64,000 bases of DNA from NCBI GenBank assembly GCA_902802115.1, contig CADCKW010000005.1:1-64000 (forward strand). Direction: 5' to 3'. This document shows positions 2,993-60,092 of the stretch, in pieces. The number at the start of each line of letters is the position of its first letter. Within the stretch, counting starts at the first letter, position 1. Both the position numbers and the translations under genes were made by a program. Source of the DNA: an uncultured Pseudomonadota bacterium. GTDB taxonomy: Bacteria > Pseudomonadota > Alphaproteobacteria > Rs-D84. The notes under the pieces are model-generated. The model was not told the DNA's origin and searched no databases. It saw only the letters and a program-made list of their open reading frames with translations.

Positions 2993-3457
2993 TTATATTC
3001 CAAATAAACTATGTGCCAATTCACCAATGGCAAATGCGATAATTGATACAGTGGTGCAAATGCCCAACATTTCTAAAAAATGTTTATAAAAATGCTGTCT
3101 GTGATAAAAAAAGAAATTAAAAGCAAATATAATTCCAATCGCAATTGCAATAATCGATAATAATGTTATTACGCGGCCAGAAAACACAAAAAATGGCAAT
3201 ATTAATAATATACATGTCACCATATATGCCGCACCGGTGCATAAAGCCGATTTTAATGCAATTTCATGATGGGTTGATTTTACAGCCAGATAATTTGCAG
3301 CCCCCATTGATAAAGATGCGGTTATTGATGAAATTACACAAGAAATTACGATAATGTTTGTATCTGTAAAGGCAAAGAATAACCCAGCAATTAATCCTGT
3401 TAGTGATACAATTGCGTCATGCATACCTAAAATAATTGCACTCTTATAATTAGACAT
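2993..3457 (-). CDS. VIT1/CCC1-type iron/manganese transporter-like membrane protein
   Basis: A 154-residue integral membrane protein if started at 3457. The N-terminal part (GMHDAIVSLTGLIAGLFF) resembles the first helix of the VIT1/CCC1 family, where a conserved Asp lies in the metal path. The segment SMGAANYLAVKS matches the family's second conserved helix end. Three more hydrophobic helices follow. Known members move Fe(II) or Mn(II); this one is short and lacks the cytoplasmic metal-binding domain of plant VIT1. No clear Shine-Dalgarno is seen and the frame stays open upstream to 3613, so the start is uncertain. Function is inferred from family resemblance. Confidence 0.7.
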   Translation of the reverse strand: MSNYKSAIILGMHDAIVSLTGLIAGLFFAFTDTNIIVISCVISSITASLSMGAANYLAVKSTHHEIALKSALCTGAAYMVTCILLILPFFVFSGRVITLLSIIAIAIGIIFAFNFFFYHRQHFYKHFLEMLGICTTVSIIAFAIGELAHSLFGI

Positions 3458-3559
3458 GACAAGATTATACATTTTTTTCGCCAGCCATGCAATACGCAAA
3501 AAATCAAATATTGACAATACTATTATTTGTGCTATATTTATAAAGAACAGAGAAAATTG

Positions 3560-10663: not shown

Positions 10664-12838
10664 ATGAAAAACAAAAAAATGACAGATGCATACAAAAATG
10701 CGGTTGGAACTGTGTTTTTGCTTGCTGGTGCTTTCTTTATTTGTTCGACATTGTTGTCAATGCGGACTGTGTTGGCTGACCCAATTGCGCCCACAACAAA
10801 TGCGGCCTCTGGGGTGAGTCCTGCGCGTACCGCGGCGGCGCGTAATTCTTCGAAATCGCGTTCGACAACGGCGTCACGTTCGACTGTATCACGTGCAACT
10901 GCTACGCGCGCGCAAACAAATAATGCATCGCGTAATATTCGCACACGCGCAATCAGTGTTCGCAATGTAAATGATGGTTCTGTCACAGACGTTCAAACAG
11001 CGGTGCGTTCAAACGCAACGCGTTCTGTGGCGCAAAGGGCGAATAATACAACAATGCGTGGTGTGGCGGCGCGTAATAATGCATCGCGTGTTGTTGCGCG
11101 GACTGCAACAACACCGTCGCGGGTGAGTCTGGTTGGAACAGGTATGCGTGCGTCTATGGGAAATACTGTTAATGTTTCATATTTATCCAGTAAATTATAT
11201 ACTGGCAATTATTCAAACATTATTGATTCAACAACTGGTTTGATTTCTGCCGATGCATACAGTGCATGTTTGGAGGGTTATTATACATGTATGGACGAAA
11301 TCTGCACCGCGCGCAGTGATGCCAAGGGACGTTGTTCTTGCGCGGGTCGTGCGACAAATTTCTTGGCCGCCGAAGAAGCTTTGGACAAAGCAAACGAAGA
11401 ATTGATTCAGTTGTCTGGTCAATTGGCTTTGTTGGTTTCAACCAAGGGCAAAGATGTCAGTCAGGCTTTCCAATTAACCGATGCTGAAAAGGTTATGAAT
11501 TGCGTATCATATAAAGATATGATTGCACAATATGGTTCCACATCGGCAACGGCTGATGCAACCAAGGTGACAGAATGGTGTTATTCACATGGTTTTTATA
11601 CCGCAAATTGTGCTCAACCGTCGTATTGTACAGATAATACAGTTGATGGTTTTAATATAGATAATATTGATGGTTCGTCATCTGATATTTTGGCATCGTT
11701 AAAGGCATGGGCAAATGCCAAAGATTTGGCAAAACAATTTACAAACAACGATTCTAATAATTTGGTTGCGCAATACACAACAATATCTGGGGTTGTAAAT
11801 GGTTTGTCTGGTATTACTGAAAATGTTGATGCGTCCCAGGCTGCGTTGGATACATTGGCGAACAAATGGGGTTATGAATTGTTTGAATATGCACATAACA
11901 ACGTTTGCGGTCGTGTGTTGGATTCTTGCTTTAACGGTATTTACGAGGCTTGCGGCACACCACCATCTGGAACGGATTCCGCAGGTAATAAAATTGGTAA
12001 ATGTGCGAACGGTGCATCGACATCATGCCCATATAATTACAACAGTGCGATTTCTGTTAAAACAACCGGTGACGGTTCTGGCGAGGTTGCATTAAACGAA
12101 CGTGGTTCAACCGGTTCAACAACATCGACATCGGCGACATGTTTTGGTTATACATCTGCAAACGGTGATCCTTATGCGTCTTTGCGTGGCCCGGTTGCTG
12201 ATGCGCGTCGTTCAATTATGCAAAAATATTTACTGGACGCGAACGCGGCATGTGACGCATACGGCAACGCGTTAAAGAATACCGCACAAAACATCAATTA
12301 TCAAAAAATTGCGGCTGAACAGGCATTGCGTCAAAAACGTATGGACTTCTATAACGAAGAAGAAGAAAAAATCAAAAATGACGCGGTTGCGGCAATCACA
12401 AACTTTAATGAATGTATCAGTGAAATTTGGGATTGTTATAACGAAAATGCGGACGAAGAAAACTGGACAACGGCGCGTATAAAAACATATTGTGCCCAGG
12501 TTTCCAATGTTCCACATTGTTATGAACCGATGATTTGTAATATAGCACCATTGCAATTCAAAAAGATTATTGATGTTCCAGATGATACAAGATGCACTTT
12601 CAGTGTGAATCGTGAAGAAAACACATGTCGTAATTTGGTCACATTAAATGAAATCTTGTATGGTGCGACCAAGAGTGATTATGTGAGTTCTGAAAACTGG
12701 GACGAGGTTATAAACGGAACTTTGACCAAAAATTCGGCAGAAATTCGTGAAGGTTGCTTGAAAAAGGCATTGGATTGTGGGGATTCATCAACTGGCGCCG
12801 AATGTCTGCGTAAATGGGTAAAACCGTCAAATAATTAA
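10664..12838 (+). CDS. large secreted Cys-rich protein, family member A
   Basis: A 724-residue protein; RBS TAGGAGAG sits 8 nt before the start. A signal anchor covers residues ~10-38 (cleavage possible after VLA). Residues 45-155 are low-complexity, dominated by Arg, Ser, Ala, Thr and Asn. Then comes C202-x6-C209-x4-C214-x9-C224-x-C226, followed by a helical segment (AEEALDKANEEL). Same spacing is found in the proteins at 16099 and 58621. Further Cys are spread over the C-terminal 450 residues, suggesting a disulfide-stabilised extracytoplasmic protein. A charged coiled coil lies around residues 555-590. No known family recognised. Confidence 0.85.
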   Translation: MKNKKMTDAYKNAVGTVFLLAGAFFICSTLLSMRTVLADPIAPTTNAASGVSPARTAAARNSSKSRSTTASRSTVSRATATRAQTNNASRNIRTRAISVRNVNDGSVTDVQTAVRSNATRSVAQRANNTTMRGVAARNNASRVVARTATTPSRVSLVGTGMRASMGNTVNVSYLSSKLYTGNYSNIIDSTTGLISADAYSACLEGYYTCMDEICTARSDAKGRCSCAGRATNFLAAEEALDKANEELIQLSGQLALLVSTKGKDVSQAFQLTDAEKVMNCVSYKDMIAQYGSTSATADATKVTEWCYSHGFYTANCAQPSYCTDNTVDGFNIDNIDGSSSDILASLKAWANAKDLAKQFTNNDSNNLVAQYTTISGVVNGLSGITENVDASQAALDTLANKWGYELFEYAHNNVCGRVLDSCFNGIYEACGTPPSGTDSAGNKIGKCANGASTSCPYNYNSAISVKTTGDGSGEVALNERGSTGSTTSTSATCFGYTSANGDPYASLRGPVADARRSIMQKYLLDANAACDAYGNALKNTAQNINYQKIAAEQALRQKRMDFYNEEEEKIKNDAVAAITNFNECISEIWDCYNENADEENWTTARIKTYCAQVSNVPHCYEPMICNIAPLQFKKIIDVPDDTRCTFSVNREENTCRNLVTLNEILYGATKSDYVSSENWDEVINGTLTKNSAEIREGCLKKALDCGDSSTGAECLRKWVKPSNN

Positions 12839-13857: not shown

Positions 13858-13889
13858 AAATCCCCCGGCACCCGCCGGGGATTTTTTTA
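13858..13889 (+). terminator. terminator of rplU-rpmA
   Basis: CCCCGGC/GCCGGGG stem with ACC-type loop followed by ATTTTTTTAT. The minus strand also has an A/T run, so it may act on both strands. Confidence 0.85.
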
Positions 13890-15599
13890 TAAAGTGCAAA
13901 GCACAATTGATGCAGGATTGATTCCGCCCCATCGCGACCCTTTAATTCCGCCCCATCGGGGAGGTGGACCTTGCTGTAGCGAAGCGAAAGCAGGTGGAGG
14001 GGGTATCAGGAACCCTCCCCACCACTTCGTGGTCCTCCCCTCCGCCGGAGGGGAATCATTGACACCATTTGCCATCGGGGCTGTTCTGCATAAAAAAACA
14101 CCCAGAAAATTCTGGGTGTCATTTATTTGGAACCAAGCCTTTTTAAGTTTAATGGGAGTTGAATTCGGGGCCAATTCCAAATAAAACCGTGTGTTTGTTG
14201 CAAAATCATAAAAACCTATTGCACCGTCACTATTGCGTTTTGCCGGAACATAATCCATGACCAATTCGTTATTCATATACATTTTGGCATAATAAACCGC
14301 ATTGCCGGCATTAACCCTGTCGTTTCTTTGATTTCCAAACATCCACAAAGGCAAGGTTTCGGCAGAAAAAGTATATTCTTTCGTCTGTGTATTCGATTCA
14401 TTTGTTGCGTCATCATGAACATATAATATTCCATGCCCATTCAACATTGTTGATCGCACAGTTAATATATTACTGGTTCTGGTAATTGTGCTGGTCGCAG
14501 TGGCATTATTTGGAAAAGAAAAACCTATTTTGCTACCAGAGGTTGCACCAGCTAAACCATGTATCACAGCATCGGCTGGGTCTCTGCTTTGCCATATATA
14601 CCAAGAGCCACCAGATGGTTTTACTTTTATTTCCATGACAATGTTATCTACATTTGGAATAATTCCTGTGTTTAAATATGTGTTGTCATTGTTTGTCACA
14701 TACTCTAACTCTGTAAATCCGTTGGGCAGGCGGTTGGCAGATTCAATAATCTCGTACCAATGGGGTTGGCCGTCGTTGTCTTCAACCAGCAGGCATTTTT
14801 TGCCGGCGGGGCATTGTTCGTCCGGGCGGGTTTGTTTGTTCGCCTGCAAATCCGCAATGGCTTTGGTTTGATTGATAGTATTTGTCACGACCGACCGTAT
14901 CGTTGCAATCGTGTCGTTCAATTCAGTCACCACAGGGCTAAACCGCGCCGAATTATACGCCGTCGTGGCAATTTTGATTGGGGATTGGCACCATAAAAAC
15001 TGATTAACACCATCAACTATCAATGAAGTATTGGTTAAATCCCATTCTGCACGGGAATATTGGCCCCCAGTCCTGCCTCTTTCAACACCAATAGCAAAAT
15101 ATGTGTTTCCTGCTTTTTCTGTACTATCTATACCACCGATTTCGACACCATCAACTTTAAAACCGTATCTGGTTCCATTAAAATAAATTTCGTTATCGTA
15201 TGTCACACTATCTTGATAACGAAATGATATACTTGTATCGTTCCATACACCAGCATTCCAAGTATCATTACCTGCACCAAAACTAAATCTTGGACGTCCT
15301 TCGCTATTTATAATGGCTTGCACATTTGTTCCGCCGTTACCAGACATAATGCCTTGGTCATTAGTTGCAGGGTGATATGTAAATCTCCACTTAAAACTCC
15401 AAGTATTTGCTGTGGAAAAATTTACATCGTTTTGAGTGCGAATATAATTCTGTGAATTGCCTGTTTTGTAAATCCCTGCACTTGTAATTGTTGGTGTGCC
15501 AGATGTATATATGCTGGAAATATTAAAGTCACAAGTTTCAGCGAATGCCGATGACATCGACAGTATCAACCCAAACACTAAACTTAAAAGTTTTTTCAT
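13887..15599 (-). CDS. secreted LamG/phage-tail-like protein with repeat-derived C-terminus
   Basis: A 570-residue protein. Start 15599 follows GGGGATTTC and begins a signal peptide (MKKLLSLVFGLILSMSSAFA). Residues 21-205 look like a concanavalin/LamG-type beta-sandwich. Residues 207-286 (IKIATTAYNSARF to PHWYEIIE) form a module nearly repeated at the end of the protein at 60093. Residues 290-480, beginning LPNGFTELEYV, resemble LamG-like domains of gut phage tail or surface proteins. The last ~55 residues, rich in Pro, Gly and Trp, are encoded by GC-rich repeats and are probably an acquired read-through tail. It is the only minus-strand gene between 5 and 18 kb. Confidence 0.75.
   Translation of the reverse strand: MKKLLSLVFGLILSMSSAFAETCDFNISSIYTSGTPTITSAGIYKTGNSQNYIRTQNDVNFSTANTWSFKWRFTYHPATNDQGIMSGNGGTNVQAIINSEGRPRFSFGAGNDTWNAGVWNDTSISFRYQDSVTYDNEIYFNGTRYGFKVDGVEIGGIDSTEKAGNTYFAIGVERGRTGGQYSRAEWDLTNTSLIVDGVNQFLWCQSPIKIATTAYNSARFSPVVTELNDTIATIRSVVTNTINQTKAIADLQANKQTRPDEQCPAGKKCLLVEDNDGQPHWYEIIESANRLPNGFTELEYVTNNDNTYLNTGIIPNVDNIVMEIKVKPSGGSWYIWQSRDPADAVIHGLAGATSGSKIGFSFPNNATATSTITRTSNILTVRSTMLNGHGILYVHDDATNESNTQTKEYTFSAETLPLWMFGNQRNDRVNAGNAVYYAKMYMNNELVMDYVPAKRNSDGAIGFYDFATNTRFYLELAPNSTPIKLKKAWFQINDTQNFLGVFLCRTAPMANGVNDSPPAEGRTTKWWGGFLIPPPPAFASLQQGPPPRWGGIKGSRWGGINPASIVLCTL
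13919..14055. repeat. GC-rich stem-loop repeats, one forward and one inverted unit
   Basis: A short fragment (13919-13928) is followed by a forward unit at 13942-14008 with the same ACCTTGCTG...CAGGT inner hairpin as the unit at 13043. An inverted unit lies at about 14008-14055. All of it is read as coding sequence by the 3' end of the gene at 13887-15599. Confidence 0.75.
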
Positions 15600-15708
15600 G
15601 AAATCCCCTTTTTTTCTCTCGTTCCTTTTTTGGTATTTTTTTGCGGAATACAAAAAAATACCGTCAACGGAAGTTGAGCGGTCGGGGTGTTCAAAAAATC
15701 AAAAGCAA

Positions 15709-16098: not shown

Positions 16099-18354
16099 AT
16101 GAGGAAAGTTTTTTTATGTTTTTTGGCGGCAATTATGTTTGCGCCCAATGCCATGGCAGCATTGACGGGTGGTCGCGCAATACAAAAAACTGAAAATTCT
16201 GCTGATAATGTGCGTGTGTCTGGAAATATTCGTGATGGGGTTGGGCGCAATGTAAATAACACCACAACCCGCACAGAAAAAAGTATTTCGCGCCCTGACA
16301 CAACATCACGTGTCGCATCGCGCAGTGCCGAAACCGTTGTGCAACGTGGCAATGTCCAAAATGTTGTGTCACGTGCGACTGATAATACCGCGTCGCGCAT
16401 AACAAATTCTGTAAAACAGCGCACCATAAACGCATCGTCAATTGATTCTGGGGCATTGATGGCACCACAAATGAGTTTCGCACCGCGTTTTGATGAACCA
16501 ACGCGCAGTGTTGCAAATCGTGCCGCAACCAAGACTGAAACCAAAAAAATTACTGCCGAAGATGTATCGGCGGCCAAAGATTTATTGGAACAAACCGCTG
16601 GATTAAATAAATCATGCCAAGAGCAATATAATGAATGTATGGACCAATTCTGTGCCGTTGTTGATACAAACCAAAAACGGTGCAGTTGTTCGGCAAATTT
16701 ATCAAAATATGCCGGGGTCCAAGATGCTGTGAACAAGGCAAATGATGAATTGAACGAGGTTGCCCAACGTATCCGCTATGTTGGTCTGTCGGCTGACGAA
16801 ATCCGCGCGATTATGAGTGAAACTGCCGCCGAGGCTGAATTAGACAATACACGTGATACATCGGAAACACGCAGTATGTTATCGAAAATCGAAGATTTGT
16901 TGCAAGACCCAACCACACGCACAACCAATGTCGCCAGTAATGATTTTGGTTTGGATTTAGACTTGGATTTTTCAGATTCTGGTGCAGATATATTCAGTTT
17001 GGATTTTTTAAACACTGATAATGATTCTATTTCCAGCAAACGCGGAACGGCACTGTATAATGCCGCAAAAAAACGTTGCAAAACAATTTTAAATAACTGC
17101 ACAGATGTTGGCGCAACATCTAATCAAATCACCGGAAATTATGATTTGGCGATCGATAAAGATTGCATCGCATATGAACAGGGTTTGAAAAAAATGAATC
17201 AAACACTGCAATCCAATGTTCGCAGTGCCGGATTAATGTTGCAAAAGGCGCGTTTGGCGGTGTTGCAAAATAAAAATCAATATGATGCCAAGGGCTGTAT
17301 TGGTGCATTGGAAACATGTATGACCGATGATATGGTTTGTGGTGCGGATTATTCAAAATGTCTGGACCCAACCAAACGTTATATCGACGAAAACGGCAAG
17401 GTTGTTTTGGGACAAGATATTACCAAGATAACTGATTTTATGGACGCGTTTAATGCTGCGCAAATTGATGCCACTAAATTATCTGCATCTTTGTCCGTCA
17501 ATATGGACGATACTTGCAAAAATGCACCAAACAACGATGGAACATGCGTTATAAAATATTTAATGACCAAAATCGGTACCGGTGCAACTGTCAAAGACGG
17601 TGGATTGTGTCGTGCGGTTTTGGATAAATGCCAACAACATACATACAGTTCTAATGAAAAATATAATCCATATAATGATGTTGTTGTAAATTATATTCAA
17701 CGCGCAATGGTGAATATTCGTTCTGCGCAACAAAATATTATTTCGGAATACGCATCAACCTGTATGACCGATGTTGCCGCATGTTATAATCAACAGGTCA
17801 CCCAGGTAAATTCATGGTCGTCGGTTGCATCTGTATCCAGTATCAAAGGTGTAATGACCGGCGCGTGCCGTAATGTTGCATTGACTTGTGGGTATGCGGT
17901 GTTTGCAAATATGTGTTCCACAGACATAAATAATATCAACAGTTGGGTATTGTCGAAAAAATGCAACGATGCAGATGCAAACGATACATCTGTTTGTGTT
18001 GCATCTGGAACCAGCACAGATACATGCACACCATGTGACGAGAATAATCAGCCAACATGTATCGAAGGGATTTCTGAAATATTCTATCAATCATTACTTT
18101 GCCCAGAAAGTTCTATGTATGATAAAAATTGTTCTTCTGGCGTGTCCAATAATCGCACAATCCAAGGCTGCGTGAATACACAATGCCGTTGCAGTGCCGG
18201 ATATACCGCATGGAACGGTTCGTGCCTGGCGACATGTAAAAGCACAGAATATCGTAATGATTATGGCACATGTACGGCAACATGTGAAAGTGGCAGCCCA
18301 TCAGGTGCAAGCACAACCAATGGCGTGTCATTGGAAAACAATACATGTAATTAA
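16099..18354 (+). CDS. large secreted Cys-rich protein, family member B
   Basis: A 751-residue protein with signal peptide MRKVFLCFLAAIMFAPNAMA. Residues 25-145 are a basic Arg/Ser/Thr/Asn-rich low-complexity region. The family motif is C173-x6-C180-x4-C185-x9-C195-x-C197, followed by the helical stretch VQDAVNKANDELNEVA. An acidic Asp-rich segment lies around residues 290-315. Many paired Cys follow, ending in EGF-like turns (CRCSAGYTAWNGSC, about 695-710). The gene starts 12 nt behind a TATAAT and has no Shine-Dalgarno. Its stop overlaps the end of convergent dnaQ by 4 nt. Function unknown; likely periplasmic or surface-exposed. Confidence 0.85.
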   Translation: MRKVFLCFLAAIMFAPNAMAALTGGRAIQKTENSADNVRVSGNIRDGVGRNVNNTTTRTEKSISRPDTTSRVASRSAETVVQRGNVQNVVSRATDNTASRITNSVKQRTINASSIDSGALMAPQMSFAPRFDEPTRSVANRAATKTETKKITAEDVSAAKDLLEQTAGLNKSCQEQYNECMDQFCAVVDTNQKRCSCSANLSKYAGVQDAVNKANDELNEVAQRIRYVGLSADEIRAIMSETAAEAELDNTRDTSETRSMLSKIEDLLQDPTTRTTNVASNDFGLDLDLDFSDSGADIFSLDFLNTDNDSISSKRGTALYNAAKKRCKTILNNCTDVGATSNQITGNYDLAIDKDCIAYEQGLKKMNQTLQSNVRSAGLMLQKARLAVLQNKNQYDAKGCIGALETCMTDDMVCGADYSKCLDPTKRYIDENGKVVLGQDITKITDFMDAFNAAQIDATKLSASLSVNMDDTCKNAPNNDGTCVIKYLMTKIGTGATVKDGGLCRAVLDKCQQHTYSSNEKYNPYNDVVVNYIQRAMVNIRSAQQNIISEYASTCMTDVAACYNQQVTQVNSWSSVASVSSIKGVMTGACRNVALTCGYAVFANMCSTDINNINSWVLSKKCNDADANDTSVCVASGTSTDTCTPCDENNQPTCIEGISEIFYQSLLCPESSMYDKNCSSGVSNNRTIQGCVNTQCRCSAGYTAWNGSCLATCKSTEYRNDYGTCTATCESGSPSGASTTNGVSLENNTCN

Positions 18355-19054: not shown

Positions 19055-19084
19055 TTGAGATAAATTTAACATTTGTATTATAAT
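19055..19084 (+). promoter_or_regulatory. promoter of uvrD, start codon 7 nt behind -10
   Basis: TTGAGA (19055-19060), 18-bp spacer, TATAAT (19079-19084). The uvrD ATG is at 19091, so the predicted transcript starts at or next to the codon. Confidence 0.65.
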
Positions 19085-19090
19085 AAAGCC

Positions 19091-21166
19091 ATGCAATTAA
19101 ATCTAGAAAATCTTAACGCGGCACAAATATCCGCGGTAAAAAAGACCTCTGGGCCATTATTGGTATTGGCGGGTGCCGGGACCGGAAAAACACGTGTTTT
19201 AACAACGCGCATTGGTTATATTTTGTCACAAAATTTGGCAAAACCCTGGCAGATTTTATCCCTGACATTTACGAACAAGGCGGCAAATGAAATGAAAAAT
19301 CGCCTGGATACGATGGCGGACGGTGAATTTTATGCGCGTGATATTTGGTGTGGAACATTTCACTCTATGTGTCTGCGTATCCTGCACAGTAATTATGCGG
19401 CGGCGGGACTGCGACCTGATTTTTTAATTTATGGCGAAGACGACCAAAAATCTGTGATAAAAAAAGTATTGGCGGATTTGAATTTACAAACAACAAAAAA
19501 GCCCGCTGATTACGTCGAAGATTTTTCCAGAATCAAAGACCGCGGTATCACCGAAAAGCCCATCACAGACAAGATTTTTAACGCATATAACGATGAATTG
19601 GCGCGCATGGGGGCAGTTGATTTTGGTGATATTATATTGCGGACTTTGCATTTGTTTCAAAACAATCCTGGAATTTTGGAACATTATCAAAATCAATTTA
19701 AATACATTTTGGTTGATGAATTCCAAGATACCAATGCGGCACAAATGCAATTATTGACATTTTTAACAAAACATAGTGACAATCCAAATATCTGTTGTGT
19801 TGGTGATGATGACCAATCTATATATTCATGGCGTGGTGCAGAAATTAAAAATATTTTGAATTTTGAAAAAACTTTTCCTGGGGCAAAAATTATTCGACTG
19901 GAAACAAATTATCGCAGTACAGGAAATATTCTGGGGGCGGCAAACTCTTTGATACGGCATAATAACGATCGTTTGGGCAAAGATTTAACAACCGCAAACG
20001 CAAATGATATGGGCGAAAAGGTTTATGTTTTTACATTGGGGTCTGATTTAGACGAGGTTAAATTTATTGCTGATGCAATTGTGCGCAATGGCCCTGTGTA
20101 TAACAATAAAACTATATTAATTCGTTCTGGGTCTTTGTCGCGTTTATTCGAAGAAGAATTTGCGCGTCGTGCGATACCATATCGTTTAATTGGTGCAACC
20201 AAGTTCTATGACCGTATGGAAATTCGTGATGCAATTTGCTATATTCGATTACTGGTGTATCCATTTGACGATATGTCATTTATGCGTATAATTGGCAAGC
20301 CGCGTCGTGGTTTTGGTCAATCGGCAATTGAAAAATTGCGTGGTTTTGGGGACAGTTTGATGTCTGGGTTGCGTAATGCAAAATTAAAAGGAAAACAGGC
20401 AATCGCAGCCCAAGAATTTTTATCCTTATTTGATTTTGATTGGGAAAATATGGAACCACGCGTGGCTGTGCAAAAATTATTAGACGATTCAGGATATATA
20501 AAAATGTGGCAAGAATCCAAAGATGCCGATGCGCCAGACCGACTGATAAATATTCGCGAATTGATATCCAATGTTGTTGCCAAATATGATTCTTTAAAAG
20601 AATTTTTGGAACAGGCATCATTGATGATGACTGATGATAATGATGAGCCAGAATCAAAAAATAATAATGCGGTAAATATCATGACGATACATGCCGCCAA
20701 AGGTCTAGAGTTTGATAATGTGTTTTTGCCCGCCTGGGAAGAAAACATATTTCCAAATGAAAAATCGATAAATGATGGTTCTGTCGAAGAAGAACGGCGG
20801 CTTGCCTATGTCGCAATAACACGCGCGAAAAAGATAGCGGTTATTACAAATACTGTATCGCGATTAATGTATGGTAATCGTCAAAATAATGCCCCCAGTC
20901 GTTTTATCAGTGAAATAGACAGTAAATATCTATGCTTTGGTAATGATACGCGTGTCGCACCGCGTCAATCGCCGCAACAATATTCTGGCCCAATGGTTGC
21001 AAAAAAAATATTTAAACCAAAAACAGAAAACTTGGTTGGTCGCCAGGCACGACACAGTGAATATGGAACCGGTGTAATTATTGCTGACGGAACGGGGATT
21101 TTGACAATCGCGTTTGGTTCGCGTGGAATAAAAAAAATCGCACGTGATTTTGTCACAATTTTATAA
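19091..21166 (+). CDS. uvrD: UvrD/PcrA-family superfamily 1 DNA helicase
   Basis: A 691-residue 3'-5' helicase. Motif I is AGAGTGKTR near residue 30, motif Ia LTFTNKAANEMK, motif II VDEFQDTNAAQ, motif III GDDDQSIYSWRGA, motif V TIHAAKGLEFD and motif VI EERRLAYVAITRAK. All ATP-binding and coupling residues appear intact. The C-terminal ~50 residues form the small Tudor-like domain (GTGVIIADG) that binds RNA polymerase in PcrA. ATG 19091 is preferred over an in-frame TTG at 19073, which would overlap the -10 box. It acts in nucleotide excision repair and replication-transcription conflicts. Confidence 0.95.
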   Translation: MQLNLENLNAAQISAVKKTSGPLLVLAGAGTGKTRVLTTRIGYILSQNLAKPWQILSLTFTNKAANEMKNRLDTMADGEFYARDIWCGTFHSMCLRILHSNYAAAGLRPDFLIYGEDDQKSVIKKVLADLNLQTTKKPADYVEDFSRIKDRGITEKPITDKIFNAYNDELARMGAVDFGDIILRTLHLFQNNPGILEHYQNQFKYILVDEFQDTNAAQMQLLTFLTKHSDNPNICCVGDDDQSIYSWRGAEIKNILNFEKTFPGAKIIRLETNYRSTGNILGAANSLIRHNNDRLGKDLTTANANDMGEKVYVFTLGSDLDEVKFIADAIVRNGPVYNNKTILIRSGSLSRLFEEEFARRAIPYRLIGATKFYDRMEIRDAICYIRLLVYPFDDMSFMRIIGKPRRGFGQSAIEKLRGFGDSLMSGLRNAKLKGKQAIAAQEFLSLFDFDWENMEPRVAVQKLLDDSGYIKMWQESKDADAPDRLINIRELISNVVAKYDSLKEFLEQASLMMTDDNDEPESKNNNAVNIMTIHAAKGLEFDNVFLPAWEENIFPNEKSINDGSVEEERRLAYVAITRAKKIAVITNTVSRLMYGNRQNNAPSRFISEIDSKYLCFGNDTRVAPRQSPQQYSGPMVAKKIFKPKTENLVGRQARHSEYGTGVIIADGTGILTIAFGSRGIKKIARDFVTIL

Positions 21167-21172: not shown

Positions 21173-23050
21173 TTATAATATTCTATCTATTTCGGTCTGC
21201 AATACATCTAATCCTGATGATGGCATTGTGCTGACAGGGACAATTGGTGTTGCGCCTATTGATGCCCTCAGTGTATTTGTTCTGGCGGTTTGATCAGCTG
21301 CCGATACAGTGTCTGTTTTTGTGATAACAACAATATGTTTGATTGTGGTTAAACCATTTCCATACGACGATAATTCATTACGTATATCATTATATTCTGC
21401 CACCCAATCTGTTTTGGTTCCGTCTATTATATACAGCAACAATCTGGACCTTATGGCATATATCAAGAAGTCTGTTCCGTATGCGGTGTTTAATGATGGC
21501 AAGCAAACAGTTGTGAATTTTCCACCAGGTGTGGATAAATCACCTGTTCTTATTGGGCGAGAACTGTATGGACTGTTTATTATGTTATCGCGATTAGTTG
21601 TCATTGCAAAAAATAACGAATATTTACCCACCAAACGCGAACCAACAATGGCGATATCGTATTCCAGGTGTTCATCGCCACTCGATGAACCACCGGCGCC
21701 ACCAGTCCCCCCAGAACCACCTGTTTTGCCACCAGCCCCAGAACTGCTGCCTGACGAACTATTCGACCCACTGTTTGAATTGTTGGATTTATTTTTTGTT
21801 TTTTGAAATTTTGACCTGATTAAAGACCATAATTTTTTTGCGTCTTTTTCTAAATTTTCGCCCCATGATGAATCTATTTTACCACCCCATTGTTGTGCCA
21901 AATTTTTCGCTTTGTCCGCCATATAGCACACCAACAACAAAGTCAAAACCAATACCATAGCCCCCGCAAAGCCGTTTAATTCATCGGCTGATAAAATTTT
22001 ACCAGTTGCCGGGTCTATAATAAATGCCAACAGCGATGTTGAAACACTGATTGCGACCGCCAAACATACAAAATATAAAGCCGCCGTCACAACACGATTG
22101 ATTTGCGTCTTTAAATCTTCGGCTTTAAATATTCCCAGAAAAGAATTAAACAAATCGCCGGCAACACCTTTGTATTTTGTCTTGGCAGTTGTTTCGGCAA
22201 TTGCGGTAAATGGCAACAACATCACAGACAAGAATAAATCAGCGATAACCCCCAAAGCAATTACCAAAAATTTCCAGATACAAATAATGGACAGGTATGT
22301 CACATATAAACCAATCGCCGCAGAAAACAAACTATGCCCAACGGCGCTGATAACCCATTTCCAACCGATTTCCATTGTTGTCACAAAGAAACTGGACATT
22401 TGACTGGGGATACATAATAAACTGGCGGCGGCATCTGCGGTAATGGTCAGGTTTGATGGTGCATTTGTTGCAACATATTGATGAATTGCCGGACATATAT
22501 CTGGCACAGAAAAACCAGCAACCGATGTCACAGTTGTTAAAATAACATTTGCAACAACATTACCAATATAAACCACCGGCATCATAATCATAGCAAACGC
22601 TTTGTCCAGACCGAAATTTAATGCAATCAGCCAAACAGAAATCCAAATACCTTTGATTAAAATATTGCGCACAGTTTCTTTTGCATCGCCCCCAGAACCA
22701 ATTAAATTATACGCTTCGAATGCGACCCAAAAAGCATACGCGATTAACATAAATAATATTGCAAATCTAACCAAAGGCGTGCCAACCGCGTTTATAACAG
22801 TTGTCATACCGCCCATAAATGCCAGCCCCAGTTTTGCATCGATTGGGACATAATTGTCGCCAACAGGTGTGGCGGTTGGACCAAAATTATTTAAATCTTG
22901 GATAATAGATGCGGTCACCAATTCGCGATTTGCCTCGGTTGCCCAAGAACCGTATTCGCCAACATCACCAACGGCAAAACCAGGCATTGATATAAATATT
23001 GCAACAATCGCAACCAAGACTTTACGGAGAAAATCATTTATTCTTGTCAT
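21173..23050 (-). CDS. VirB6/TrbL-like membrane protein fused to a degenerate Obg-like GTPase domain
   Basis: A 625-residue protein. A signal peptide or first helix covers residues 8-27. Hydrophobic helices at about 85-110, 130-180, 225-280, 318-345 and 360-378 form a VirB6/TrbL-like polytopic part. Residues 418-459 are a Ser/Gly/Asn linker. Residues 463-625 form a P-loop GTPase-like domain: IVGSRLVGKYS (468-478, Tyr where Ser/Thr is normal after GK), FLIYAIRSRLLLYIIDG (528-544) as in Obg proteins, G4-like TKTD (577-580) and G5-like STMPSSGLDVL (607-617). The DxxG Switch II motif is not recognisable (CLPS). GTP hydrolysis is doubtful; binding may remain. It overlaps the upstream gene by 4 nt and is the last of four co-directed VirB6-like genes. 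Confidence 0.75.
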   Translation of the reverse strand: MTRINDFLRKVLVAIVAIFISMPGFAVGDVGEYGSWATEANRELVTASIIQDLNNFGPTATPVGDNYVPIDAKLGLAFMGGMTTVINAVGTPLVRFAILFMLIAYAFWVAFEAYNLIGSGGDAKETVRNILIKGIWISVWLIALNFGLDKAFAMIMMPVVYIGNVVANVILTTVTSVAGFSVPDICPAIHQYVATNAPSNLTITADAAASLLCIPSQMSSFFVTTMEIGWKWVISAVGHSLFSAAIGLYVTYLSIICIWKFLVIALGVIADLFLSVMLLPFTAIAETTAKTKYKGVAGDLFNSFLGIFKAEDLKTQINRVVTAALYFVCLAVAISVSTSLLAFIIDPATGKILSADELNGFAGAMVLVLTLLLVCYMADKAKNLAQQWGGKIDSSWGENLEKDAKKLWSLIRSKFQKTKNKSNNSNSGSNSSSGSSSGAGGKTGGSGGTGGAGGSSSGDEHLEYDIAIVGSRLVGKYSLFFAMTTNRDNIINSPYSSRPIRTGDLSTPGGKFTTVCLPSLNTAYGTDFLIYAIRSRLLLYIIDGTKTDWVAEYNDIRNELSSYGNGLTTIKHIVVITKTDTVSAADQTARTNTLRASIGATPIVPVSTMPSSGLDVLQTEIDRIL

Positions 23051-24546
23051 GATACAATCCCCTGGTCTTTCATAGATTTAACTGCGGCATCGAACCATTT
23101 TCGTGGGGCGCGCAAAGCCTTGGCACCCAAATCGTATGTCCATTTACCAATATCGAATTTTTCACTTGTTGATAAATCTGTTTCTTCGGTATGTGCCAAT
23201 GGAATTTTAACTTTGCCATATGGTAATAATTTATCAATTCTGGGCACCAACACATAATAATAAGCAAATATCAAACCGAACATCAGCAGCAAAAATGTCC
23301 AACCATCTTTCAAGAAATCAAACGCATCAGGATATACCTGTTCGATTTGTGCCTTTTGTTCCAAGAAACAAGGTTTGAATAAATCTGCATCAACCAAACC
23401 ATCGGCATTTTTGGATTCAGCCTCGCACTTTGCAAAAGCATTCATAACATATTGTGCCTGGGGCGATGTTTTTCCTGACATTTGCATTTCGAACATCGGC
23501 GGTAAAATCGAAGTATAACTATCTGTGGGACCTGGGAATAATGAATCCGCTGCATAATAAACAATTGAAAATAATATAGTGATTTTTAAAGATATCGATA
23601 TAATCGCCACCGCCGCTGAAACAACGGTCCCCAATGCTTTGCGAAACAGTCCCGATGCGATTTTCCATACCTGTTCATATGCCGCGGCGGCAATCAAGAT
23701 AGGCAAAAATATAATTACAAAAACGACTTTGAATAATACAGAAAATATTTGAAAGAATAAATCAAATCCAACAATTAAAAACGCGATAACCAATAACATT
23801 CCAGAAATCCATGTCATTATACCGCCACCCAATCCCAACCAAGCATAGTTCATCAATGCAAAACCGCCCGCCGCGCCAGCCAACATAACGGCATATAAAT
23901 TTCCTAAAACACACATAAACGCACCTGACAAAGCCGACATCGCGCCAGACAATTCGGTTGCACCCAAAATTACATTGCAATCGGTTGCCGATGCGACACC
24001 TGTGGCGGTCATAGACAATATTGAACCTATGTATAAAATGGGTGAAATTAAAATTTCGGAAACAACTTTCAAAGATTCTGTTCCGCCGGCACTCAAAACA
24101 CCGATGGCGACACCTGCAATTAAAATACGCACACCCAATTTCCATACGGGGTCGAACCATTTTTTGAAATCCAAATCATTTGCAGATGTTGAATAACTGG
24201 CGTTCTTTTTTGATGCGTCCCAAATAAATTTAATAGCAGATAAAAACATATAAATCGCAAAACCTGCCGCCATCAATATCCACAAATTATCAACAATACC
24301 GGTCCAAAACATTTCGGACGCCTGTCCCAATATATTTAACAGTTCGACCAAATATCCGCCTAAAAATAAATGTCCCAGATTTGAAATATCGCCATCTGCA
24401 CCCACAGAATGCATAAAATTATCCAAAGATGTATATGTTAATGCATCACCACCAATTGTCGATGTTAAATACCAAATTCCCAACCCCAGTGCGATTGCGA
24501 CGCCCAGTATTCGTAAAACTATCGAAATTATTTGCAACTTCTTCAT
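23047..24546 (-). CDS. VirB6/TrbL-like type IV secretion membrane protein
   Basis: A 499-residue polytopic protein. The N-terminal helix is followed by a periplasmic loop and about seven further helices, densest at residues 185-320. A second soluble loop (about 340-410) contains two Cys. The C-terminal ~85 residues are cytoplasmic and charged. Helix layout and the Gly/Ala-rich central helices resemble VirB6/TrbL inner-membrane channel subunits. It overlaps the next gene by 4 nt and lies 12 nt behind the 24559 gene. No VirB4, VirB8 or VirD4 gene is nearby in this window. Confidence 0.6.
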   Translation of the reverse strand: MKKLQIISIVLRILGVAIALGLGIWYLTSTIGGDALTYTSLDNFMHSVGADGDISNLGHLFLGGYLVELLNILGQASEMFWTGIVDNLWILMAAGFAIYMFLSAIKFIWDASKKNASYSTSANDLDFKKWFDPVWKLGVRILIAGVAIGVLSAGGTESLKVVSEILISPILYIGSILSMTATGVASATDCNVILGATELSGAMSALSGAFMCVLGNLYAVMLAGAAGGFALMNYAWLGLGGGIMTWISGMLLVIAFLIVGFDLFFQIFSVLFKVVFVIIFLPILIAAAAYEQVWKIASGLFRKALGTVVSAAVAIISISLKITILFSIVYYAADSLFPGPTDSYTSILPPMFEMQMSGKTSPQAQYVMNAFAKCEAESKNADGLVDADLFKPCFLEQKAQIEQVYPDAFDFLKDGWTFLLLMFGLIFAYYYVLVPRIDKLLPYGKVKIPLAHTEETDLSTSEKFDIGKWTYDLGAKALRAPRKWFDAAVKSMKDQGIVS

Positions 24547-24558: not shown

Positions 24559-25767
24559 TTATTTCCTGTTGTCTGCAATCGTTTTAATACCTTTTTTAAT
24601 TCCGTTAAACATACTGTTTGTGGCATTCATTATTGATTTACTTAACCCTTCGCCAACTTTGGGTTCTGCGGCTTTGGTATCAAACATACCCAAAATGATA
24701 TCAGTAATTTGTGGAATTTTTCCATAAATAAATGTTAAAACATAAACTAAAACAACCACACTGGTCAGTGTAATATCATATTGCCCTGTGACCCCCAGAT
24801 CCCCAGAATAAATTTCACCGTTCATAATTGCCGCCAATAATGCGTCAAAACTGTTTGTTCCGTCATTGGGATCTGTAAAGAATCGTGCAATAATAACTAA
24901 AATAACAGTATATGTAATTACCGCCGAGCCCAAAGTTATAATTGCTCCTATTAAATTTTTAATTTGTTCAACACCAACACCTTTGCCGAAATTTTTTATC
25001 CACCCTAACCAAGACGGAATATCTTTGTCATTAACATCTTGAAATGCCGATGCCATCAACGATATTGGAAAGAAAAATGCAAACATAGCCATTGCGATAA
25101 TAACATCTGCAAAATAACATAAAAAATTAAAGAACATTTTGAAAAACGCGAAAAACAAATATAACCCAACAAACGCTAAAATTAAATGCTTTATAAATGC
25201 ACCAATGCCGAAAAACATGTCCCATGAAAAAGCGGAATCCAACATTGCGACCCCCAGATTCATAAAGCCTTGGAATTGTGTGATTGTCACCTTGGCAATA
25301 TCGATAATTGCAATACGCAAATCATCGCGGAAAAAACCATTTTGGACAGTTGTTTTTAATGGTTGATATGTCACATGTTCTTCGATGATATCGGGTGTAG
25401 ATTTTAACATTGCGGTCGCGTATGTTTGTGTCACATATGCCACCGGTTCAAATGTAATCGTTGTAATGAAACGTGGCAACATAACACCCATGCCTAAAAA
25501 AGCCATGGCAAATATAGAATTGATAAATACCGGTCGCATAGACTTGCTGAACCAACCGTCTTGGAAACCGGTGGTAATATTTTTCCAAACAGCCCCAAAA
25601 ACATACAAACTGAAAAAAGCCATAAAAACGACAGTACATATAAAAACAAATTTGGGGTATGCACTCGCAGCGGCGGCAGAAATAATTTGAAACATGCGGT
25701 CAAATATTGGGCAAGACCAACATTGCACAGTATTAGATATAAAGATATGTCCTAATTCTGTTATCAT
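24559..25767 (-). CDS. VirB6/TrbL-like membrane protein with N-terminal CWSC motif
   Basis: A 402-residue polytopic protein. Near the N-terminus it has QCWSCPIF (residues 15-22), closely matched by TCWSCQLF in the gene at 27096. Helices lie at about 40-60, 80-105, 195-250, 285-300 and 335-355. A short charged tail ends the protein. The CxxC pair could be a redox or metal site in an otherwise VirB6-like protein. Its start codon overlaps the stop of the 25767 gene by one base, indicating co-translation. Confidence 0.6.
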   Translation of the reverse strand: MITELGHIFISNTVQCWSCPIFDRMFQIISAAAASAYPKFVFICTVVFMAFFSLYVFGAVWKNITTGFQDGWFSKSMRPVFINSIFAMAFLGMGVMLPRFITTITFEPVAYVTQTYATAMLKSTPDIIEEHVTYQPLKTTVQNGFFRDDLRIAIIDIAKVTITQFQGFMNLGVAMLDSAFSWDMFFGIGAFIKHLILAFVGLYLFFAFFKMFFNFLCYFADVIIAMAMFAFFFPISLMASAFQDVNDKDIPSWLGWIKNFGKGVGVEQIKNLIGAIITLGSAVITYTVILVIIARFFTDPNDGTNSFDALLAAIMNGEIYSGDLGVTGQYDITLTSVVVLVYVLTFIYGKIPQITDIILGMFDTKAAEPKVGEGLSKSIMNATNSMFNGIKKGIKTIADNRK

Positions 25768-27035
25768 TATTTACCCCGAAATACCTTCCATAAATTTTGT
25801 GCGGTTTTCGCATTAGACTTTGTAATATCCCAACCTGTTTTAACATCTTTTTTAACCGAATCATATAAATCTGTTCCGCCTTTGCCGACATAACTTTTTA
25901 ATTTGTCGCGTGTTATTTCAAAAACTTTATTCATCAAAAAGAAAGTCAGCAAACAAGACAACCACAATACAGAATGTTCGCCAAATCCACTGGAATTTGC
26001 ACTGGCAGACGGCACACTGGAATATGCGGTGCCACCAACCGACGAAACGAATATAGTGCTGTTCCATTGAAACAGTGCGCTGACCAATGCGATATTTACA
26101 CACAACATAAACGCACACGCAATCATGGTGACAATCATTTTTTTCAATGCGTCAATAATACCTGAAAAAGCCGGCCAAATATTAAACCATGGGTCACTGG
26201 GTTTAACCACCCATGCGGCAACATTAAACGGATATAAAATCAAAGCAATTCCAAAATCAAAAATCGCCTGGATAATCAATAATGCCATAAAAATATTGCA
26301 TGCTGTAAATGTTCCCACCATCAGCAACCCAGTAATAATATTCATAAAACTTTGTCCGCCATTGTGTGTCATCAGTGATGTTGGCAGTCCGCTGGAAATA
26401 TATTTAAAACCACGTTTTACAACGGCATTATTTGCCACCGATAAAACATGGACTGGTTCGATTAAATATTCGCATGATTGTTTGCTAAGCCAGCCTTGTT
26501 CCAATAAATTTTCTGGGCATTTGATGTCAATACTGCTTTGCAGGTTGATATTGCTGGACGCTTTTAAAATTTCGGTGGTGTAAAGTGACCCAAAATGCAT
26601 AAACGGGTTTATTACGGCATTTGCCAAAAACTGTGGTCGCAACGGTAATAAAACCAATACAGCCACCAATACGCGAATTCCAGGTTTAATTAAATCTTCA
26701 CCAATTTTTGTTGGTGTTGCATTATCTGCGGTGACTGATGGGGCCTTGAACCCAAATGTTTTTAACCAGAATTTTGGAATATATAATTTTATCAAATACG
26801 ATGCGATATAAAATGCAACAAATCCCCAAATCAGTAAATATATAATTCCATCACCATGACCAACAAAATACGCGTATGTTCCATTTGCAACAAACATAAA
26901 CGCGTCCAGAACAATTGGCACCAATCCAGATATATCCAAAGAATCAATATTGATTATTGATGCGTTTGCAACCCCCGGCACAAATGCACCCAGAAAACAA
27001 ACAATTGCGGCAAAAAATTTTTTTATAAAATTCAT
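25767..27035 (-). CDS. VirB6/TrbL-like membrane protein, first gene of the minus-strand set
   Basis: A 422-residue protein with a probable signal peptide (residues 1-25). Hydrophobic helices occur at about 38-56, 63-82, 120-140, 230-265, 285-315 and 355-368. The tail from 370 on is charged. Topology and neighbours support VirB6/TrbL relatedness, although I see no single diagnostic motif. A -10-like TATAAT lies about 20 nt upstream of the start on the minus strand, so this gene probably opens the four-gene operon 25767-23047-21173. Confidence 0.55.
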   Translation of the reverse strand: MNFIKKFFAAIVCFLGAFVPGVANASIINIDSLDISGLVPIVLDAFMFVANGTYAYFVGHGDGIIYLLIWGFVAFYIASYLIKLYIPKFWLKTFGFKAPSVTADNATPTKIGEDLIKPGIRVLVAVLVLLPLRPQFLANAVINPFMHFGSLYTTEILKASSNINLQSSIDIKCPENLLEQGWLSKQSCEYLIEPVHVLSVANNAVVKRGFKYISSGLPTSLMTHNGGQSFMNIITGLLMVGTFTACNIFMALLIIQAIFDFGIALILYPFNVAAWVVKPSDPWFNIWPAFSGIIDALKKMIVTMIACAFMLCVNIALVSALFQWNSTIFVSSVGGTAYSSVPSASANSSGFGEHSVLWLSCLLTFFLMNKVFEITRDKLKSYVGKGGTDLYDSVKKDVKTGWDITKSNAKTAQNLWKVFRGK

Positions 27036-27095: not shown

Positions 27096-28433
27096 ATGAA
27101 TTGGTTAAAAAAATTTTGGATAACATTTGTATCGTTCTTGCCATTATCCGCAGGGGCGGTTTCGCCGTTTTTAATTGGTGGTGCGGTTTTGGGGGCTGGT
27201 ATAATTGGTTATTCTGTTTATCGCAGTGTTGCACCGGTAAATTTGGCGGACGCGTTATCGTTTTTTTCAACATGTTGGTCGTGTCAGTTATTTTCGGATA
27301 TTGTTGCAACAATGTCGCATATTTTACCGGTTGCATACAAAGCATTGGGTAAAATTATAATTCCGTTTTCGATTGCATTAACTGCGGTTTGGTTTGCGTG
27401 GCAATTATTGGAAATTTATACAGGTTCCAAATCCAAAAGTGATATTGCGTCCGCCCCCGCGGTTGCAGATGGTTGGAATATTGGGGCAAAGTTTGGTATG
27501 CACACGATAAAATTGTTGTTTGTTGCGGCATTGTTGGCGGTGCCATTACCGCGTTTAATTTCGTCTGTGATTGTGGAACCAATATTTGATATCGGTTTAT
27601 CTATGAATTATACGATGTCTGCGGTTGATTCGCGTGCAAATTATGCGAATTGTATAGTTGCCACCGCGGTTGCCGACCGCCAAAGCATTTATGCCGATAC
27701 AAATAACGGTGGTATAAACGCATTTGCACCAAAATTCCGTCATAACCTGACATGCCAAATTGCAAATGTTCATCAAATGACAGGTTTGGGTATGACGGTT
27801 GGTTGGACAATGTTAAACATGGCGTTTAATTCCCAGTATATGCATAAAATATTATGGGGTGTGCCAATCTTTCCAAATATTCCGCTGTTTTTAACAGGCT
27901 TGTTGATAACTTTACTATTTTTTGCGGCATTGTTGCCGATACCGTTGTATTTTTTGGAAATATTTATGAAATTGGCTGTGGATTTTCTGTTGTTGCCACT
28001 GACTTTGCTGGAATGGTTGTTCAAAGATTGGACAGTAATAAAAATGGGTGACAGAAATATTCAAAAAACCATAGACGATGTTATATCTGGGGCATTGGGA
28101 TTGGCAATGACGGGGATATTTATAACATTTGCGATTATGGTTTTGAATGCAGTATTTTCTGGTTGGACCGGTGCCGATGTTATCAAAACAGCCATAGCCC
28201 AAAACGATTCGCAATATTTGATAGATAATTTGCTGCAAACAACCAGAAATACTGCATTGGTGACGATTATTTTGATGGGGATATTTATGACAATGTTTAT
28301 GGTAATGATACCGGCATTGATAAAATCTTTATTTAACATTGAAATATCGGATAAATACTATCAAACCGCGAAAAAAGACACGAAAATTTTGTGGGACGAC
28401 ATAAAAAAAATATGGAATTCCGCAAAAAAATAA
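27096..28433 (+). CDS. VirB6/TrbL-like membrane protein with CWSC motif, divergent from the set
   Basis: A 445-residue polytopic protein. The N-terminal helix is followed by a Gly-rich helix (FLIGGAVLGAGIIGYSV) and FFSTCWSCQLF around residue 57-67. This resembles the start of the 24559 protein, so the two are probably paralogues. Helices follow at about 85-105, 145-165, 225-300, 335-355 and 385-410. It is transcribed away from the other four genes but clearly belongs to the same group. The mRNA is predicted leaderless. Confidence 0.6.
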   Translation: MNWLKKFWITFVSFLPLSAGAVSPFLIGGAVLGAGIIGYSVYRSVAPVNLADALSFFSTCWSCQLFSDIVATMSHILPVAYKALGKIIIPFSIALTAVWFAWQLLEIYTGSKSKSDIASAPAVADGWNIGAKFGMHTIKLLFVAALLAVPLPRLISSVIVEPIFDIGLSMNYTMSAVDSRANYANCIVATAVADRQSIYADTNNGGINAFAPKFRHNLTCQIANVHQMTGLGMTVGWTMLNMAFNSQYMHKILWGVPIFPNIPLFLTGLLITLLFFAALLPIPLYFLEIFMKLAVDFLLLPLTLLEWLFKDWTVIKMGDRNIQKTIDDVISGALGLAMTGIFITFAIMVLNAVFSGWTGADVIKTAIAQNDSQYLIDNLLQTTRNTALVTIILMGIFMTMFMVMIPALIKSLFNIEISDKYYQTAKKDTKILWDDIKKIWNSAKK

Positions 28434-53050: not shown

Positions 53051-54196
53051 ATGAAAACCGCATATTTTACATTTTTAATAATCGCAGGTCTAATGCCCAA
53101 ATTTGCATTTGGCGATGTATTTATTCCAAACTATGCGGTGCCTTTTCCGCCGGTTCAAACACAAACCATGCCCCAACAAACACAATCCGGGCAAACTGGG
53201 GGAACATCATTATTGACCGCATCAAATTTTCCAAAAACATTTAACGATGTCGATTTTGCTGACCGTATTGCTGTCAAACGCGCTGCGTATGTTCCATTTC
53301 AAGACATGGACGCTTATAAAGGTCTGGTTGTTGCCGGCGAAGAACATTATACAGAACGCCAACTGGCCGAATTAGAAATTCAACGCCAACAAGATTCTTT
53401 AAGCTTGCCCAAAGCCGAATATTGTGACAAATACCCGACCGACGACGAATATTGCAGTCCTGATGAATCAACTTTGGCGGACACAATAAAAATCGGTGAT
53501 GCCCCGTCCCCAGATACAAAACAGCCATTTACCCCAGTTGGTTCTTTTTCAGGTCGCACAATTGGTGGCGGCGCGGTTATTGCACGCAATGATATTCACA
53601 ATGGTTCTTGTTATCCGGCGGCAAAAAGTAAAGTCTTTAAAAATATGGTTATGACAACCGGTCAATATGAAACCAGCCTGCCCCCATTTGAAAAGGCAAT
53701 GATTACTGTATTTCGCAAAGAAGGCAAATGTGGCGAAATCAAAGGCGACCCATGTGGATACACATGTTATGGCATTGGGTCTGGGCCAAATTGTATGGGA
53801 CACGATATTGATGTAAAAAACTTGACACGTGCAGGTGCCGAAAAATTATATCACGACAGAATGTGGGCAAAATATCACTTTGACAGATTGCCCGATGTTA
53901 TTGCCGGCGATATATTTTTGGCATCTATGGCCAGTGGCCCCTGCACCGCGATTAAACAATACCGCGGATTTTTAGGGTTAAGTAAAAATTGCAATATTGA
54001 TAACGATGTCGTTCGTGCAACTGAAAATTATACTGGCGATATTCATAATGATTGGCTGGACGTTCGTCAAAAATTCTTGATAGATGTTGCCGAACGCAAA
54101 TATCAAAACAGGGTTTTAAAAGGCTGGATGAACGCGATACAATTAAAACGCGAAAACGGCTGTCATGTAATTCCCACCGACCCATTATACAGATAA
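53051..54196 (+). CDS. secreted GH108-like N-acetylmuramidase
   Basis: A 381-residue protein with a signal peptide (MKTAYFTFLIIAGLMPKFAFG). Residues 25-190 are a Pro/Gln-rich and acidic spacer of unknown role. Residues ~205-380 resemble phage-type glycosyl hydrolase 108 muramidases: ITVFRKEGKCGEIKGDPCGYTCYGIG corresponds in part to the catalytic EGG...D.GG..T..GI segment with Glu224. LYHDRMWAKYHFDRLPD and a PG_binding_3-like end follow. Extra Cys suggest disulfides in the periplasm. It could remodel or lyse peptidoglycan, be a domesticated endolysin or serve as a VirB1-like enzyme for secretion. Confidence 0.7.
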   Translation: MKTAYFTFLIIAGLMPKFAFGDVFIPNYAVPFPPVQTQTMPQQTQSGQTGGTSLLTASNFPKTFNDVDFADRIAVKRAAYVPFQDMDAYKGLVVAGEEHYTERQLAELEIQRQQDSLSLPKAEYCDKYPTDDEYCSPDESTLADTIKIGDAPSPDTKQPFTPVGSFSGRTIGGGAVIARNDIHNGSCYPAAKSKVFKNMVMTTGQYETSLPPFEKAMITVFRKEGKCGEIKGDPCGYTCYGIGSGPNCMGHDIDVKNLTRAGAEKLYHDRMWAKYHFDRLPDVIAGDIFLASMASGPCTAIKQYRGFLGLSKNCNIDNDVVRATENYTGDIHNDWLDVRQKFLIDVAERKYQNRVLKGWMNAIQLKRENGCHVIPTDPLYR

Positions 54197-59796: not shown

Positions 59797-59933
59797 GTAT
59801 AATCAAAATATGGCAAAAAGGTGCGGATTTCCGCCAGTTTATAAAATCGAGAGAGTTGAAAATTTTGACTGAAAAACGGCAATTTTTACGAATCGCAAGA
59901 AAATTTATGTGCAACATTGGTTGCACAGAGTGG

Positions 59934-59998
59934 CAATTCCGCCCCTGTGGGGAGGGGGACCGCGGAGCCGTTTTGGCGAGCGGTGGAGGGGGTGTTGT
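59934..59998 (+). repeat. GC-rich stem-loop repeat, copy with ACCGC...GCGGT hairpin
   Basis: ATTCCGCCCC...GGGGAGGGGG frame with inner ACCGC(GGAGCC...GGCGA)GCGGT and GGAGGGGGT end, as at 9832 and 13043. A perfect GTGCAAC/GTTGCAC hairpin (59909-59926) lies just to its left. The 59599-60092 stretch is otherwise filled by the element at 59651 and the repeat at 60020. Confidence 0.75.
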
Positions 59999-60019
59999 AA
60001 AAAGCATCAAATCAATGCC

Positions 60020-60076: not shown

Positions 60077-60092
60077 ATGCCCGGGAAATGCG

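Follow-up and report, generated by a model that had tools for sequence, protein, structure and literature searches.

An Obg-derived G domain joined to an extended VirB6-type protein in Candidatus Enterousia

In Rickettsia, the vir genes of the type IV secretion system (T4SS) are scattered, and the VirB6 genes, several to an array, have extra regions that vary (PMC2653234). A 'GTP-binding' gene in its own right is present in some Rickettsia vir operons (PMC2653234, Table 2), an arrangement different from the fusion described here. A review from 2025 on type IV secretion gave the role of the extended VirB6 domains as unknown, and named no GTPase (PMC12857230). The VirB6 protein of R388 has only two N-proximal membrane helices, the remainder being periplasmic (PMC9259494, PMC12857230). 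The bacteria studied here belong to the order Rs-D84, small-genome gut Alphaproteobacteria thought to be symbionts or parasites (PMC12306168).

We analysed a stretch of 64,000 nt from a Candidatus Enterousia genome (contig CADCKW010000005.1, assembly GCA_902802115.1; genome G000), referred to as the window. A gene at 21173..23050 on the minus strand encodes a protein of 625 aa in which a VirB6-type protein, a Ser/Gly linker and an Obg-type G domain follow one another, and its frame is uninterrupted over 625 codons from ATG to TAA. A sequence-only reading of the window had proposed that a VirB6/TrbL-like channel protein is fused here to an Obg-like GTPase domain. The single open gene, the matches to Obg and the recurrence of the fusion in two other genomes bear this out for a VirB6-superfamily protein and an Obg-type G domain. 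The same reading knew of no T4SS inner-membrane subunit with a GTPase domain; our search of the open-licence literature agreed, finding neither a VirB6–GTPase fusion nor any T4SS subunit with such a domain.

The VirB6 array and its surroundings

The membrane part of the protein (residues 1-420; 21791..23050, minus strand) is polytopic, with an N-terminal signal-like segment and a basic C-terminal tail, as supported by hhalign, orthologues and hydropathy. The Pfam TrbL family (PF04610) matched neither this protein nor, at E<=10, any sequence in four genomes from the genus, and when the VirB6 part was searched against PDB sequences only spurious receptors came up. Because Pfam TrbL gives no match, membership of the VirB6 superfamily rests on profile-profile comparison. 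With hhalign, the VirB6 part reached a probability of 94.3% against PF04610-positive VirB6 arrays of other Alphaproteobacteria, and all five genes of the array reached 94-98%, against <=0.5% for the controls ComEC, Kef, ABC and YidC; against the canonical VirB6 group, the fusion gene reached only 1.8%. Orthologues of the VirB6 part were present in nearly all genomes of the genus. On these comparisons, and given the other T4SS genes of the same genome listed below, we accept residues 1-420 as a member of the VirB6 superfamily, of the extended type.

The fusion gene closes a run of four minus-strand genes that overlap each other or are separated by gaps within 12 bp. The run opens with a VirB6-superfamily gene of 422 aa (25767..27035; hhalign 95.6%), followed by genes of 402 aa (24559..25767; 96.7%) and 499 aa (23047..24546; 96.2% to VirB6 arrays), the last of which overlaps the ATG of the fusion gene. 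A fifth VirB6-superfamily gene (445 aa; 27096..28433, plus strand; 98.3%) is divergently transcribed. At its other end, the fusion gene is convergent with a uvrD/pcrA-type helicase gene (19073..21166, plus strand), and the two stops are 6 bp apart; in most relatives this distance is 0-9 bp, and in one the genes overlap by 4 bp. The closely spaced helicase and VirB6 stops mark the insertion site of the domain.

The same genome contains matches to VirB4, VirB9, VirB10, VirB11-type and VirD4-type proteins, with VirB8 just under the Pfam cut-off, and these vir genes lie at scattered places. A lysozyme-type protein of glycoside hydrolase 108, beginning with a signal-like segment and encoded at 53051-54196 (plus strand) of the window, is a candidate for the cell-wall-cutting role of VirB1.

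Several other loci were noted. Large secreted Cys-rich proteins (CMDQFC...RCSCS) with no Pfam match are encoded at 10664-12838, 16099-18354 and 58621-59598 of the window, and elsewhere at L041 9579-12029 and L042 1501-3717 and 4687-6888. Two of them adjoin the VirB6 array, a position kept in the corresponding loci of genomes G071 and G108, and it is possible that they are secretion-linked surface proteins. A multi-copy, secreted-looking family combines variable N-terminal parts with the module KIATTAYNAARF...TIREIVT.TINQTAAIASLQADKQTRPEDACPAG; its members lie at 13887-15653 (minus strand) and 59856-61373 (plus strand) of the window, both without a Pfam match, and at L190 2853-3785, 13323-14666 and 18196-18993. 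The family may consist of variable surface proteins. The minus strand of the window also encodes, at 55002-55721, a 239-aa FtsK/SpoIIIE-type ATPase core standing alone, much shorter than FtsK, and, at 63146-63955, a reverse transcriptase (PF00078) that reads IGNLTSQ where QGxxxSP is usual, as in diversity-generating retroelements. No direct repeats of 40 bp or more were found near the reverse transcriptase at 58.4-64.0 kb.

An Obg-type domain with degenerate motifs

Behind the membrane part, a low-complexity linker of Ser, Gly and Asn (residues 421-461; 21668..21790, minus strand), recognized by its sequence and composition, leads to a degenerate Obg-type G domain (residues 462-625; 21176..21667, minus strand). 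When searched alone against NCBIfam, the domain matched ObgE (E=1e-15) and Obg_CgtA (8e-15) ahead of Era (4e-4) and EngA (6e-4), with Obg scores far below the full-length cut-offs. In a phmmer search of the PDB, about 162 C-terminal residues matched Obg 1udx (E=3.5e-7). Identity to the lineage's own Obg was 34%. The N-terminal glycine-rich Obg-fold of full-length Obg was absent, and the domain is preceded by the linker and the membrane protein.

The sequence-only reading had staked its G domain on structure prediction, which returned a G fold with Obg as the best structural match. An AF2 model built from an alignment spanning both halves had a mean pLDDT of 72; ten-residue blocks of the G domain were mostly at 76-94 but only about 63-65 in the switch regions, and the linker fell below 50 at residues 425-460. 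The best Foldseek match of the model was Obg 1udx (E=1.4e-8), and the best VIA-align match was likewise Obg (Z 20.3, rmsd 2.6 Å, 160 residues aligned); the G domain filled these structure-search lists, and the matches are to that domain. A model built from the three fusions alone reached a pLDDT of 43 and was set aside.

All the motifs quoted in the earlier reading (GSRLVGKYS, DFLIYAIRSRLLLYIIDG, TKTD and SSGLDVL) were found in the domain, and alignment placed them on the minus strand as follows. The G1/P-loop GSRLVGKY (residues 470-477; 21620..21643) retains Gly and Lys, and has Tyr in place of Ser/Thr directly after GK, as had been remarked. Switch I (G2) has Ser-Ser (residues 496-497; 21560..21565) where Obg has Thr-Thr. 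The G3 position reads CLPS (residues 516-519; 21494..21505), so that the Asp and Gly of DxPG are missing and the reported loss of Switch II is confirmed. The G4 motif TKTD lies at residues 577-580 (21311..21322), and the G5-like STMPSSG at residues 607-613 (21212..21232).

We compared the three known fused domains with Obg in an alignment (A10) in which the Obg rows were correctly placed; four others (A5, A6, A8 and A11) misplaced these rows and were not used. Where Obg reads GFPNAGKS, FTT, DLPG and NKID, the window genome reads GSRLVGKY, YSS, CLPS and TKTD, G071 reads GMQKTGKY, YSS, YLPP and TKKD, and G108 reads GLPTSGKT, ITK (which may retain the switch Thr), DIPG and SKID. The window copy falls short of the active P-loop GTPase set (GxxxxGK[ST], switch I Thr, DxxG, NKxD), of which the G108 copy has more. 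In G000 and G071, the Mg2+ and water-positioning residues are gone, and the P-loop Lys and a guanine-type TKxD are retained. TKxD is the form used by SRP GTPases. Judged by these motifs, the G000 and G071 domains are probably pseudo-GTPases in which a normal GTPase cycle is unlikely; guanine-nucleotide binding is possible, given the retained P-loop Gly and Lys and TKxD, and the G108 domain could still be active.

The domain evolves much faster than Obg: between G000 and G071, identity is 43% in the domain, 58% in the VirB6 part and 87.5% in Obg. Among the fused domains, second codon positions differ by 0.30-0.39 and third positions by 0.60-0.66. Values of dN are 0.56-0.72 and of dS about 2 or more; dS is saturated, with one pair not computable, and dN/dS of the domains is a rough guide only. 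The pattern fits weak purifying selection on the domain.

Distribution and history of the fusion

The fusion was present in 3 of 156 Candidatus Enterousia genomes: the window genome, G071 (644 aa; isolate RGIG6772, from sheep rumen) and G108 (631 aa; isolate RUG11963). All three, each a different species, have open frames at the same locus with the same neighbours, and a low-complexity hinge linker is found in each. A further 45 genomes of the order showed no fusion, their clear Obg-type matches falling in obg-sized frames or contig-end fragments. Long frames near obg matches in G105 and G162, taken up as candidates for further fusions, proved to be upstream read-through of ordinary obg. Within the related clade of nine genomes, the VirB6 open frame of the six unfused members ends at 431-438 codons.

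The sequence-only reading had called for a search for the same fusion in related genomes, and its occurrence in G071 and G108, at one locus in independent assemblies, rules out for practical purposes that two separate genes were wrongly joined by assembly or prediction. The closest sister genome, G116, is without the domain, as such an artefact might lead one to expect, but the same mid-contig fusion beside the same neighbours in two independent assemblies, with domain identities of 43% and 35%, leaves this explanation a negligible probability.

The window genome retains a separate, normal obg (G000:C4), as do all nine genomes of the clade, the G108 copy being cut off, apparently by the contig end. 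A motif preceding G4 (DW...Y..IR.E) is common to the three fused domains and the order's Obg, and missing in a planctomycete homologue, and domain trees place the fused domains near Obg and apart from Era. These sequence relationships indicate the lineage's own obg as the source of the fused domain. A foreign GTPase acquired by horizontal transfer finds no support, because the order's own Obg signature is present and the tree position is near Obg. Contig G099:C38 has two obg matches of equal score and identity, at 3055-3522 and 21805-22272, and JAIDWS010000009.1 (L149, L150) likewise has two on a single contig; either recent duplication or an assembly repeat could account for these pairs.

The VirB6 part of G116 is 94% identical to that of the window genome, and the domain is cleanly missing. 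The protein ends in a short basic tail, as in other relatives, with its stop 1 bp from the helicase stop. The short sequence TAATTTATAAAAT lies at the stop of G116. In the window genome it comes after the stop of the G domain, which reads like the insertion of a segment immediately ahead of the original stop codon. Since the nearest relative does without the domain and most relatives lack the fusion, the domain is accessory and not a core function.

On the number of events, the trees give conflicting evidence. Trees of three linked genes (the VirB6 part, the neighbouring VirB6 gene and the helicase) pair G000 with G116 and G071 with G108. Contrary to this, the domain tree pairs G000 with G071 (support 99/97), and GKY and YSSRP are common to these two domains; long branches make both the host-gene and the domain trees uncertain. 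The three linked genes disfavour one acquisition in an ancestor exclusive to G000, G116, G071 and G108 (AU p 0.005, with groups named after seeing the tree). Four columns common to all three fusions and rare in Obg would favour one origin of the fusion. Given the conflict between the host-gene and domain trees, the fusion may have had one origin followed by losses, may have been exchanged between species, or may have arisen separately in G108.

In the VirB6 tree, the branch of the fused window gene (0.056) is about seven times longer than that of its unfused G116 counterpart (0.008), and the amino acid differences between the two cluster at both ends of the VirB6 part (21791-23050). The two genes neighbouring the VirB6 part evolve evenly in G000 and G116.

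Proposed role and comparison with known systems

The explanation we favour, with a confidence that tips only slightly past evenly balanced, is that a pseudo-GTPase tail on an extended VirB6 serves as an adaptor or scaffold, or as a sensor. In one clade of Candidatus Enterousia, the G domain of the lineage's own obg would have been copied and joined to the last gene of the VirB6 array, at or just before its stop codon; the comparisons above establish the joining itself, leaving aside how many events there were and in which direction. As sequence and model show, the product is an extended VirB6 of the T4SS, with the G domain hung by a flexible linker from the basic C-terminal tail, which is probably cytoplasmic. 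In G000 and G071, the pseudo-GTPase would have lost its cycle and might still bind a guanine nucleotide, at most as a structural ligand. As a scaffold or sensor, the domain would most likely bind to a partner where the secretion machine faces the cytoplasm; candidates are T4SS ATPases, a substrate, or a factor on the ribosome side to which Obg itself binds. We consider it unlikely, as a more specific proposal, that the tail senses guanine nucleotides (GTP/GDP or ppGpp) as a pseudo-GTPase derived from the growth-control GTPase Obg, tying the T4SS to the growth state of the cell.

The very fast divergence of the domain and its absence from six of nine clade members weigh against our favoured explanation, and fit a weakly needed appendage. 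An obg fragment might have been captured by recombination at the operon end, tolerated thanks to the flexible linker, and left to decay and be lost repeatedly. We find such a nearly neutral appendage doubtful but deserving of some weight: the fusion occurs in only three of the nine genomes and not in the closest sister, divergence far outpaces that of Obg, the catalytic motifs are gone and the fused VirB6 branch is long (0.056 vs 0.008). However, the frame, the P-loop GK, the Lys and Asp of G4 and the third-position excess were kept in three diverged lineages, all of which retain the low-complexity hinge, and the genomes of the order are small and dense (PMC12306168). A GTP-driven switch, in which the channel would be opened, closed or assembled depending on the domain's nucleotide state, in the way that the FeoB G domain regulates its membrane part, strikes us as quite unlikely. 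The G108 copy, which has kept GxxxxGKT, a switch I Thr candidate, DIPG and SKID, leaves room for an active ancestor of the fused domains, and the best structural matches include FeoB G domains. Nevertheless, the domain is missing from relatives that have the same VirB6 array, and the earlier suggestion of channel gating, if by a working GTPase cycle, is unsupported for the window copy, in which, as in G071, the G1 Ser/Thr and the G3 Asp and Gly are missing. A true GTP switch is best reserved for the G108 copy.

The location of the domain bears on a further alternative: that the C-terminal part of VirB6 is periplasmic, and that the fold binds no nucleotide and acts as a folded spacer or docking surface. 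The largely periplasmic R388 VirB6 (PMC9259494, PMC12857230) speaks for this, and keeps a cytoplasmic tail at the level of inference; the loss of catalytic motifs would also fit a nucleotide-free place. On the other side, the tail after the last hydrophobic segment is basic (10 K+R against 4 D+E up to residue 430), as is the loop at residues 288-315, and the two hydrophobic segments between them are consistent with both being inside. C186 and C213, in or beside the loop at residues 184-239, are invariant in 37 orthologues, which suggests that this loop, and not the tail, is outside, and nucleotide-binding motifs are kept in G108. The charge distribution and the cysteines point to a C-terminus, and with it a G domain, that is probably cytoplasmic, and we rate a periplasmic fold as highly improbable.

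Here, the extra domain of an extended VirB6 has a known identity, belongs to one clade and has a domain-free sister for comparison, so that its role can be put to the test. Should the domain bind nucleotides, this would be the first guanine-nucleotide module found in the inner-membrane core of a T4SS, as far as the open-licence literature goes; if it does not, it would be a clear bacterial case of an essential GTPase fold reused as a scaffold.

The nearest sequence relatives of the fused domain are Obg/CgtA proteins (1udx, 1lnz, 5m04), which have the same fold and motif order. Unlike them, it has no Obg-fold N-terminal domain, is attached to a membrane protein, is without the G1 Ser/Thr and G3, has TKTD for NKxD at G4, and coexists with a true Obg encoded elsewhere. 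FeoB, whose G domains rank high among the structural matches (Foldseek, VIA-align), likewise joins a G domain covalently to a polytopic inner-membrane transport protein; its G domain, however, is N-terminal, intact and of its own family. Eukaryotic pseudo-GTPase domains, in p190RhoGAP and degenerated septins (PMC5593906, PMC10731463), have also kept the G fold and lost catalytic residues within multidomain or oligomeric proteins; these families are unrelated, and the parallel is one of mechanism only. The extended VirB6 proteins (Rickettsia RvhB6a-e and other large VirB6; PMC2653234, PMC12857230) similarly form arrays in small alphaproteobacterial genomes, with vir genes scattered on the chromosome and extra hydrophilic domains beside the membrane part, but in the protein described here the C-terminal addition is a recognizable, Obg-derived G domain.
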